From NCBI RefSeq assembly GCF_005082585.1, contig NZ_CP034855.1, positions 372,001 to 436,000 of the forward strand: a DNA stretch of 64,000 bases. Reading direction: 5' to 3'. The position numbers were made by a program, and so were the translations under genes. Source of the DNA: Buchnera aphidicola (Sitobion avenae). Lineage in GTDB: Bacteria > Pseudomonadota > Gammaproteobacteria > Enterobacterales > Enterobacteriaceae. Of this stretch, positions 8,506 to 44,964 are shown piece after piece. Each line of letters opens with the position of its first letter. Positions within the stretch are counted from its first letter, which is position 1. The notes below the pieces were generated by a model. The model was not told the DNA's origin and ran no database searches. It saw only the letters and a program-made list of their open reading frames with translations.

Positions 8506-8670
8506 ATGGCAGTTCAAAAAAATAAACCTACTCGATCTAAAAGAGGAATGAGACGTTCTCATGACTCTCTGCAAGTACCAACTTTATCTATAGATAAATT
8601 TTCTGGAGAAACACATATTCGACATCATATTACTTTTGATGGCTATTACAAGGGGAAAAAAGTTATTTAA
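8506..8670 (+). CDS. rpmF: 50S ribosomal protein L32
   Basis: This 54-residue protein begins [20 protein letters not shown], the near-invariant N terminus of proteobacterial L32. It continues to an [11 protein letters not shown] end, so length and sequence agree with the family (E. coli 57). L32 sits near the peptidyl transferase exit side of the large subunit. The gene follows rluC after 82 bp; in E. coli yceF and yceD lie between them and are gone here. In E. coli rpmF leads the fatty-acid gene cluster; here plsX and fabH are missing and fabD follows after a 308-bp spacer. Confidence 0.97.
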
Positions 8671-34087: not shown

Positions 34088-34143
34088 TTTTTAAAAATAT
34101 TTGCTCTATTTAAAGCATTAATGATAAATTAAAACATGTGTAA

Positions 34144-34162
34144 TATGCCGCAAAGCGGCATA
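34144..34162. terminator. G+C-rich hairpin between convergent ridA and deaD
   Basis: An 8-bp perfect stem TATGCCGC/GCGGCATA (34144-34151, 34155-34162) with an AAA loop is by far the most G+C-rich spot in its spacer. It has no long U tail on either strand. It sits 12 bp before the deaD stop and 57 bp after ridA, so it probably acts on both transcripts. Confidence 0.75.
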
Positions 34163-34174
34163 AAAACTGAAACA

Positions 34175-35977
34175 TTAAATTTTTCTACGACGAAAAAAAG
34201 ACGTTTTAAGTTCATTTTTTTTAGATGTATTAGATTTGTTTATACTATTTTCAGGAACACGACGACTACTATTTTTATCTCTATTAAAAATAGAGCGATT
34301 AGACGTCTTACTTTCATAACTTCTTAAATCTTTTAATAATTTTATATTAATTAATTTGTTTAAGATTCTAGTACGAGTGAAGTTTTGTAGTAAATCTTTA
34401 GACATTCCCTTAGGTAATTCAATTGTAGAATAAGAAGAAAAAAGTTTAATATTGCCAATATTACGACTATTAATATTCCCTTCATTAGCAATTGCTCCGA
34501 CTATATGACGCACTTCAACTCCATCATTACGACCTACTTCAATACGATATAAATCCATATCTTTATTATCACGACGTTCACGACGTAATCGACTATTTCG
34601 ATTATCCTCACGTCGATATTCATCTTTTAATAATGCATCCCGTGATTGACGTTTTATTGGATCTGATTTAATTATTAAAGGACGTTCACCTTGAGCCATT
34701 TTCAACAAAGCAGCCGCTAAAGTTTTTATATCTAAATCATCAGTAGAATATAACTTATCTAATAAAACACTATATTCATCTAAATCTCGACTTTCTAATT
34801 GTTGTTGTACTTTTTTAGCAAATTGCTCAAGACGTCTTTGACATAATAATTCTATTTTTGGCAATTGAACTTCCGGAATAGACTGTTTAATAGTACGTTC
34901 TATATTGCGTAACAAACGACGCTCACGATTTTCAACAAATAATAATGCCCGACCTGCTCGACCTGCTCGACCTGTTCGACCTATGCGATGAACATAAGAT
35001 TCTGAGTCCATAGGAATATCATAATTGATAACCAAACTAATACGATCAACATCCAAACCACGTGCTGCTACATCTGTAGCAATTAAAATATCTAATCTAC
35101 CATTTTTTAATCTTTCTAAAGTTTGTTCTCGTAATGCTTGATTCATATCTCCATTTAATGCTGCACTATTATATCCATTACGTTCTAATGCTTCAGAAAC
35201 TTCTAAAGTTGCATTTTTAGTTCTAACGAAAATAATTGTAGCTGAAAAATCTTCTGCTTCTAAAAAACGAATTAATGCGTCGGTTTTTCGACCATATACC
35301 ATCCAATAACTCTGTTTAATATCTGGTCGTGTAGTTATATTAGACTGAATTTTAATCTCTTGTGGATTTTTCATAAATCTTTTGGAAATACGACGAATTG
35401 CTTCTGGCATTGTCGCAGAAAACAATGCAGTTTGATGTTCTTTTGGAATCTGAGTCATAATAGTTTCTACATCTTCTATAAATCCCATCCGTAACATTTC
35501 GTCTGCTTCATCTAAAACTAATCCGTGTAAATTAGAAAGATTGAGTGTTCCTCTTTTTAAATGATCTAATAAACGACCTGGAGTTCCTACAACAATTTGA
35601 GGTCCTTGTCGTAACGCACGTAATTGAAGTTCATATCTTTGACCACCGTACAAAGGCAGTACATGTATCCCGATCATATATTTAGAAAAATCTGAAAATG
35701 CTTCTGCTACTTGAACTGCTAATTCTCTTGTAGGAGCTAATACTAATATTTGAGGAGCTTTTAAATTAATATCAAGATTATGTAATAATGGCAATGAAAA
35801 AGCAGCTGTCTTGCCGCTTCCTGTTTGTGCCATTCCTAATACATCACGTCCTTCTAAAAGCAAAGGAATACATGATGCTTGAATAGGAGAAGGTTTAACG
35901 TATCCCATTTCAGTTAAAGATTGAATAAGAAAAGGATTTAAACCAAGAAAAGAAAATGTGCTTTCAATATGAGTCAT
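34175..35977 (-). CDS. deaD: ATP-dependent RNA helicase DeaD (CsdA)
   Basis: DeaD unwinds RNA in 50S assembly and mRNA decay at low temperature. The 600-residue product (E. coli 629) has helicase motifs [10 protein letters not shown] (I), PTRELA (Ia), DEADEM (II), SAT (III) and [14 protein letters not shown] (VI). A specific RNA-binding domain lies at about 460-540 ([24 protein letters not shown]). The C-terminal tail is Arg/Ser/Asn-rich and replaces the E. coli RGG-like repeats. The gene lies downstream of pnp, with nlpI lost. The upstream leader is unusual; see the separate entries. Confidence 0.96.
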
Positions 35978-35998
35978 GCAGTAGATATGCCTTTTAAG

Positions 35999-36025
35999 TT
36001 ACCGTGGCCAGTCTACATAGCTCAT
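35999..36025 (-). CDS. Upstream ORF of deaD, 8 codons (MSYVDWPR)
   Basis: ATG at 36025, stop TAA at 35999-36001, exactly 16 codons before and in frame with the deaD ATG. The peptide MSYVDWPR matches the start of the N-terminal extension once annotated on E. coli DeaD, but here an in-frame stop separates it from deaD. It may be a regulatory upstream ORF or simply part of a conserved RNA element. No Shine-Dalgarno is obvious. Confidence 0.4.
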   Translation of the reverse strand: MSYVDWPR

Positions 36026-36036
36026 TATGAAAATAT

Positions 36037-36099
36037 TTATTTATTCTCATTGAAAAGTGTGAACCGGCTCAAATTAAATGATCTAAAAAATAAAACCAT
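36037..36099 (-). CDS. Upstream ORF of deaD, 20 codons
   Basis: ATG at 36099, stop TAA at 36037-36039. The peptide includes FNLSRFTLFNENK; its second half is encoded by unusually G+C-rich codons (AGC CGG TTC ACA) for this genome. E. coli has a small gene, yrbN, in the same position before deaD; whether this is its counterpart I cannot verify without its sequence. It is out of frame with deaD. Confidence 0.35.
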   Translation of the reverse strand: MVLFFRSFNLSRFTLFNENK

Positions 36100-44881: not shown

Positions 44882-44964
44882 TACCGAGAATGGGATTTGA
44901 ACCCATACGCCTGTTTGGCACTATCCCCTCAAGATAGCGTGTCTACCAATTCCACCATCTCGGT
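44882..44964 (-). tRNA. leuU: tRNA-Leu(GAG)
   Basis: On the minus strand the 83-nt sequence folds as a class II tRNA. The acceptor stem is ACCGAGA/TCTCGGT with discriminator A. The D-arm contains GGTAGACACG, and the anticodon stem CTATC/GATAG has loop TTGAGGG (anticodon GAG). A long variable arm and T-arm GGGTTCAAATCCC follow. CCA is not encoded (the next bases read A-T-A). It reads CUC and CUU codons. It lies 54 bp after secG, the E. coli secG-leuU order. Confidence 0.97.

Follow-up and report, generated by a model that had tools for sequence, protein, structure and literature searches.

A conserved RNA hairpin in the deaD leader of Buchnera and its relatives, and its candidate role in a two-state switch over the deaD start site

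The leader of the deaD mRNA in Buchnera is best explained, overall, as a conserved cis-acting RNA element that would act as a two-state switch with feedback from DeaD, a reading to which we give a probability of roughly 0.55. DeaD is a main cold-shock RNA helicase of enterics; it is induced by cold and restrains its own expression by way of its leader. In E. coli the deaD 5' UTR is reportedly the site of this autoregulation, and the title of a work on it (Ojha and Jain 2020, RNA 26:1160) names mRNA decay and Rho-dependent termination. Two structures are involved: (i) a 62-nt hairpin (hairpin A) directly upstream of the gene, which is almost certainly real and functional; (ii) an alternative pairing (structure B), exclusive with the former, that covers part of the Shine-Dalgarno sequence (SD) and the deaD start codon. 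By refolding over this start signal, the leader RNA probably controls the output of the helicase.

In the window (the whole 64-kb stretch of Buchnera DNA that was analysed, to which all positions refer) deaD sits after pnp, from which it is separated by a spacer of 378 nt (36355-35978). The gene order in E. coli is pnp-nlpI-yrbN-deaD, and no nlpI ORF is present in the 378-nt spacer of the window. The features discussed below are the following:

34175-35977, minus strand: deaD, 600 aa, with matches in 61 of 61 genomes searched, the one in E. coli carrying the annotation deaD
35990-35993, minus strand: likely deaD SD, AAGG, read directly from the sequence
36007-36068, minus strand: hairpin A, 62 nt, with four helices (P1-P4) and a variable A/T loop
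P1 of hairpin A, minus strand: GCCGGUU (36068-36062) with GACUGGC (36013-36007)
P2 of hairpin A, minus strand: ACA (36060-36058) with UGU (36017-36015)
P3 of hairpin A, minus strand: UUCA (36054-36051) with UGAG (36024-36021)
P4 of hairpin A, minus strand: AUGAGAAUA (36050-36042) with UAUUUUCAU (36035-36027), closing the variable A/T loop
35969-36025, minus strand: structure B, exclusive with hairpin A, pairing AUGAG (36025-36021) with CUCAU (35973-35969), UAUGUAG (36019-36013) with CUGCAUG (35981-35975) and GCC (36008-36006) with GGC (35991-35989)
35999-36025, minus strand: MSYVDWPR followed by TAA, in frame with deaD (ATG at 36025, stop at 36001-35999)
35994-36050, minus strand: shortened yrbN frame, 18 aa, with its start codon inside P4, kept in 20 of 36 Buchnera genomes
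36037-36099, minus strand: incidental 20-codon ORF from 36099, with an in-frame ATG in 5 of 36 Buchnera genomes

The leader (36068-35978) is present in all 36 Buchnera genomes, the window's own counted, and is strikingly conserved among them. Mean majority identity is 0.96 in the hairpin (36068-36007; 42 of 62 columns invariant) and 0.97 in the SD block (35997-35978; 15 of 20 invariant), against 0.65 in the upstream spacer (36277-36151; 2 of 127 invariant). The first 30 codons of deaD reach 0.95 (51 of 90 columns invariant), third codon positions 0.81 and fourfold sites 0.72 (2 of 97 invariant); the hairpin region thus roughly equals the first codons of deaD in conservation and lies well above the fourfold sites. 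With the spacer (0.65) and the fourfold sites (0.72) as references, identities of 0.96-0.97 indicate strong purifying selection on the leader in Buchnera. An earlier, sequence-only reading of this DNA had set conservation above the spacer in other Buchnera as a test of its proposal, which these values bear out, and it had expected a matching sequence upstream of E. coli deaD, which was looked for by alignment and found: the leader can be aligned with E. coli yrbN-deaD, and 27 nt of the E. coli deaD leader, TTTGAGCCGGTTCACACTTTTCAATGA, are letter-identical in the window. The G+C-rich patch that it had noticed is real but not unique, in that 62-nt spacer windows in the 64 kb average 17% G+C, half the 34% of the hairpin, yet 282 of the 6033 reach its value.

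Some further observations concern the surroundings of the leader. Other G+C-rich spacer patches lie in the window at 8527, 10838, 44736, 50834, 57987 and 58096, and the richest, at 44902, is a tRNA-Leu. Part of the upstream spacer (36150-36118) has raised conservation (0.75 to 0.90 in 10-nt bins) and by eye resembles the 3' end of E. coli nlpI, so that it is possibly an nlpI relic. Just past deaD, a hairpin ATGCCGCAAAGCGGCAT (34136-34160) recurs in nearly all Buchnera loci and is likely the deaD terminator. One locus (L036, genome G005) carries the sole deaD match with an internal stop among the 36, and its leader is damaged too: P3 is unformed and the ATG of MSYVDW is altered.

Hairpin A was obtained by RNA structure prediction, which had been suggested for this leader; its segment has a minimum free energy of -19.7 kcal/mol and a z-score of -4.56, with 1 of 200 shuffles as good. 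Paired cells amount to 97.5% in 29 sequences and to 88.8% in 100 related sequences from loci chosen for diversity. In the latter set both sides have changed at 13 of the 23 pairs, against a mean of 6.0 in shuffles, which ignore kinship; there are 37 further pair types against 28.4, and the covariation score is 0.148 against 0.121. Each of these measures was equalled by 0 of 500 shuffles, and slid partners score 0.061 or less. The outermost and innermost pairs of P4 are unpaired in 63 and 61 of the 100 sequences, respectively, and mostly fail outside Buchnera.

Because the alignment of the 100 sequences was fitted to the covariance model, P1 was also located independently, by pattern. All seven of its pairs are formed in 160 of 166 loci (172 of 176 counting repeats, a count in which the 3' strand could not be placed by pattern in four loci: L099, L101, L112 and L165), and its variants include ACCGGTT/GACTGGT and GCTGGTT/AACTAGC. 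On the tree of 162 loci, same-branch double changes occurred at two of the four P1 pairs tested (p=0.0062 and p=0.00029). This set was taken without the repeats (E. coli L032, the Buchnera loci L053-L055, and L059), which are likewise excluded from the groups of 36 Buchnera and 129 non-Buchnera loci used below, and without the insert-bearing L099, L103 and L112. Eight loci whose SD and start could not be placed (L041, L042, L128, L130, L131, L148, L160 and L189) were left out of the tree test and of the counts of frames, P1 patterns, structure B and energies. The loci are akin to one another, so that counts over them do not stand for independent events. Taken as a whole, the comparative evidence shows hairpin A to be a conserved RNA structure.

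A covariance model was built from 29 sequences, the window's own among them, and its match in the window scores 92.8 bits with that sequence in the model. At E 0.1 hairpin A is matched in 199 of 246 genomes of the family, nearly always once per genome, and in 195 at E 0.001 or better; four weak matches (G108, G224, G261 and G302; E 0.019 to 0.048) can probably be put down to chance, because G108 and G302 have no DeaD match. Across the order it was found in 25 of 295 genomes, three of them outside the family. Among the best 80 of 568 relatives, 80 of 80 deaD loci carry it, including those of Erwinia, Pantoea, Serratia, Yersinia, Pectobacterium and Klebsiella, and in the inspected loci, as in E. 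coli, it lies directly upstream of deaD. The element is, as far as these searches indicate, common to deaD leaders widely in the family and not peculiar to Buchnera.

The model has no match in 47 of the 246 family genomes. Examination of 24 genomes with no match or a weak one revealed a strong DeaD match in 20 of them (one at just 41% identity), which is why hairpin A appears to be dispensable in some reduced symbionts. Twelve loci from these 20 DeaD-bearing genomes were inspected by eye; about four (L195-L198) seem to retain a P1-like pairing and the others do not. Since P1-like pairing is seen by eye in L195, L197 and L198, which have no model match, the true distribution of the element may exceed what the model detects.

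Searches of Rfam 15 at the gathering score gave tRNA alone across the whole 64-kb window, SraG alone in the E. coli locus and no match in three further loci; the leader has no match there up to E 5. No deaD-leader structure is described in the titles and abstract openings of the literature searched, a scope outside which most subscription papers fell. From its conservation and pairing we take hairpin A to be a real, widely conserved cis-regulatory RNA that is new with respect to Rfam 15, where it has no match.

The sequence-only reading had proposed that the leader is kept either as RNA or as a regulatory upstream ORF. Its description of MSYVDWPR followed by a stop, in frame with deaD and 16 codons (48 nt) before the ATG at 35977, is correct on the minus strand (36025 to 35999), and so is its account of the E. 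coli peptide: E. coli K-12 has MSYVDWPPLILRHTYYM at the equivalent position, in frame with deaD and with the identical spacing of 48 nt. This frame, open in E. coli, is stopped before deaD in 36 of 36 Buchnera genomes, so that an N-terminal extension of DeaD, which had been doubted from the start, can be rejected for the genus. The 20-codon ORF from 36099 exists as described, but it is not yrbN, to which it had been tentatively assigned, because yrbN is the frame from the ATG at 36050 and the ATG at 36099 is found in only 5 of 36 genomes. In fact, E. coli YrbN (b4685, 26 aa) aligns with this third frame of the window, where only 18 aa remain; this frame is closed by a stop whose last base is 35994, leaving 16 nt to the deaD ATG, so it does not overlap the deaD start as it does in E. 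coli.

The yrbN frame (FHxELCRLA / xRLA) is kept in 20 of the 36 Buchnera genomes, including that of the window, and lost in the other 16, with at least four losses according to loss-only parsimony on the deaD tree. Most breaks are changes of loop length that are not multiples of three (elements of 61-69 nt) and that spare the helices of hairpin A; in L036 the cause is an in-frame stop. As a consequence of these repeated losses, the YrbN peptide is rejected as the unit of selection in Buchnera. The proposal of an upstream peptide fails for the genus because 16 of 36 genomes have a broken frame and yet retain the RNA hairpin, and what the Buchnera leader conserves is the RNA and not its peptides. 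In free-living relatives YrbN may be of value, since 94 of 96 larger genomes have it in frame, as do 20 of 35 non-Buchnera reduced genomes (2.4 Mb or less). In two of the reduced genomes (L093 and L096) the yrbN frame enters deaD without a stop and would form one protein with it.

The predicted competitor of hairpin A is structure B. The 3' strand of hairpin A, AUGAGCUAUGUAGACUGGCC, is complementary to the SD, the start codon and the next codons of deaD. Pairs of B were counted by position from the deaD ATG, because the alignment puts two start-site spacings in different columns. In the window the duplex of the B strands has -15.7 kcal/mol, a value that none of 79 control segments within deaD attained, and the fold has a z-score of -1.49. 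The same comparison with segments of deaD was made in 10 loci, that of the window among them; the B duplex was the best in nine, the exception being L159, where 4 of 77 are as good.

Among the 129 loci outside Buchnera, each leader's own strands pair at 9.27 of 10 positions on average against 8.93 when strands are swapped between loci, and 0 of 2000 swaps were as good. The position x3:y+4, which is unpaired in hairpin A, pairs in 123 of these loci with four kinds of base at x3; on the tree its covariation amounts to two same-branch events (p=0.056, 162 loci), and the three other B pairs tested on the same 162 loci had no same-branch changes. All 11 chosen loci outside the genus have a B fold z-score of -2.5 or lower, down to -5.4. 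In nine Buchnera loci the z-score ranges from -0.65 to -2.53, one being below -2. Twelve of the 13 positions of the B helix pair in 33 to 36 of the 36 Buchnera genomes; x3:y+4 pairs in one, 34 having a C.A mismatch there, and pairing between own strands does not exceed that between swapped ones (8.83 against 8.83, 36 genomes). Codons 2-3 of deaD, which face the hairpin strand, are ACT CAT in 33 of the 36 and ACT CGT in three. By these comparisons structure B is well supported outside Buchnera; within the genus it is plausible and modestly supported.

In the window the predicted ensemble free energy is -25.1 kcal/mol for A and -22.1 kcal/mol for B, and the deaD start codon is predicted to be unpaired at 0.91 in A and at 0.05 in B. 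A is favoured in all 36 Buchnera leaders, with a median gap of 3.6 kcal/mol; of the 129 others, 87 favour A (median gap 1.3 kcal/mol) and the remaining 42 favour B. A leaves the start codon more open than B does in 34 of 36 Buchnera and 118 of 129 other leaders. In Buchnera the unpaired fractions are 0.86 in A and 0.04 in B for the start codon, and 0.60 and 0.33 for the SD; outside the genus they are 0.21 and 0.00, and 0.34 and 0.33, respectively, and the start codon of E. coli is unpaired at just 0.19 in A. Thus the ON and OFF states are predicted to differ clearly in Buchnera but little in the other leaders, in which the start codon is largely paired in A too; with an SD equally unpaired in both structures and a start codon open at only 0.21, A would not be a clean ON state outside the genus. 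A plain RNA thermometer was considered and rejected: A is favoured in 36 of 36 Buchnera leaders at 10, 15, 25 and 37 C, with a median gap that goes from 4.5 to 3.6 kcal/mol.

The mechanism that we propose begins with hairpin A, which could fold as soon as it is made, ahead of transcription of the deaD start. If A is opened, complementarity and energy predict that its 3' strand would form B and close the deaD start site, so that A would be the ON and B the OFF state. Abundant and idle DeaD would open A and thereby lower its own translation, and the untranslated deaD mRNA would then lose stability and transcription through decay and Rho-dependent termination; in the cold, or with DeaD occupied elsewhere, A would persist and deaD be expressed. 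In Buchnera the predicted balance towards A would leave deaD mostly ON, with feedback weakened, perhaps not abolished. The parts of this scheme differ in strength. That A and B act as a translational switch is, to our judgement, an even wager; that DeaD is the factor shifting their balance is a tentative suggestion, somewhat short of even; and the full proposal, that of an RNA switch without an Rfam entry through which an mRNA reports the activity of the helicase it encodes, DeaD opening A and the freed strand shutting the deaD start, kept from free-living enterics into Buchnera, is slightly more doubtful again.

Other explanations account for part of the data. Ribosomes translating yrbN could set the fold of the leader and hand over to deaD at an overlapping start, the RNA being kept because it encodes YrbN. 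Such coupling fits the 94 of 96 larger genomes with the frame, the 74 of 96 in which it ends beyond the deaD start (+8 to +17), and the position of the yrbN start within hairpin A; yet the element is retained where the frame is lost, in 16 of 36 Buchnera and 15 of 35 other reduced genomes, a leader of family f11 (L041) has the hairpin and no yrbN ATG was found in it, in 21 of 96 larger genomes yrbN ends short of deaD, and by eye no SD was seen before yrbN. We consider this coupling unlikely. Hairpin A could instead be a simple stabilizer of the mRNA, or a site for a protein or nuclease (e.g. Hfq, CsrA, a ribosomal protein, RNase III or E), with B a chance complementarity. That A is far better supported than B, and that B is weak in Buchnera, would be expected from this, but outside the genus the complementarity is strong and centred on the start codon, and so we hold this explanation to be improbable as well.

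Structured, conserved intergenic spacers of Buchnera have been put forward as possible sRNAs (PMC3164680), and the leader could likewise be processed to a small RNA acting elsewhere. The likeness lies in structured and conserved spacer DNA; the main text of that paper does not name pnp, deaD or csdA, the match is nearly always single in a genome and, in the loci inspected, directly upstream of deaD, and conservation extends into the deaD SD and start codon, which makes a role in trans very improbable. That the element has no function in Buchnera and is an inherited one in slow decay would agree with B being weaker there than elsewhere, but it is contradicted by the difference in rate (0.96 against 0.65 in the upstream spacer and 0.72 at fourfold sites), and its chances are negligible.

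The switch with DeaD feedback, which we prefer, can be set beside known systems. With the autoregulation of the E. coli deaD 5' UTR it shares an orthologous gene and leader, with the hairpin directly upstream of deaD there too; the two-state model proposed here differs in that it is inferred from comparative sequence. Attenuator-type leaders also have two exclusive pairings on one shared strand, one of them covering the start site; here the proposed sensor is the encoded helicase itself, in place of a ligand or a stalling peptide. YrbN of E. coli corresponds in position and sequence to the third-frame ORF of the window, but the latter is shorter, and in 16 of 36 Buchnera genomes the frame is shifted or stopped early.

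Now that an element of 62 nt and its specific pairing partner are defined, the route of DeaD autoregulation becomes testable in E. coli with reporter mutants. The hairpin has survived in Buchnera although the yrbN frame is frequently lost, which separates the function of the RNA from that of the peptide beyond what E. coli alone allows; its survival also suggests that a symbiont with few regulatory systems remaining is still sensitive to the dosage of this helicase.
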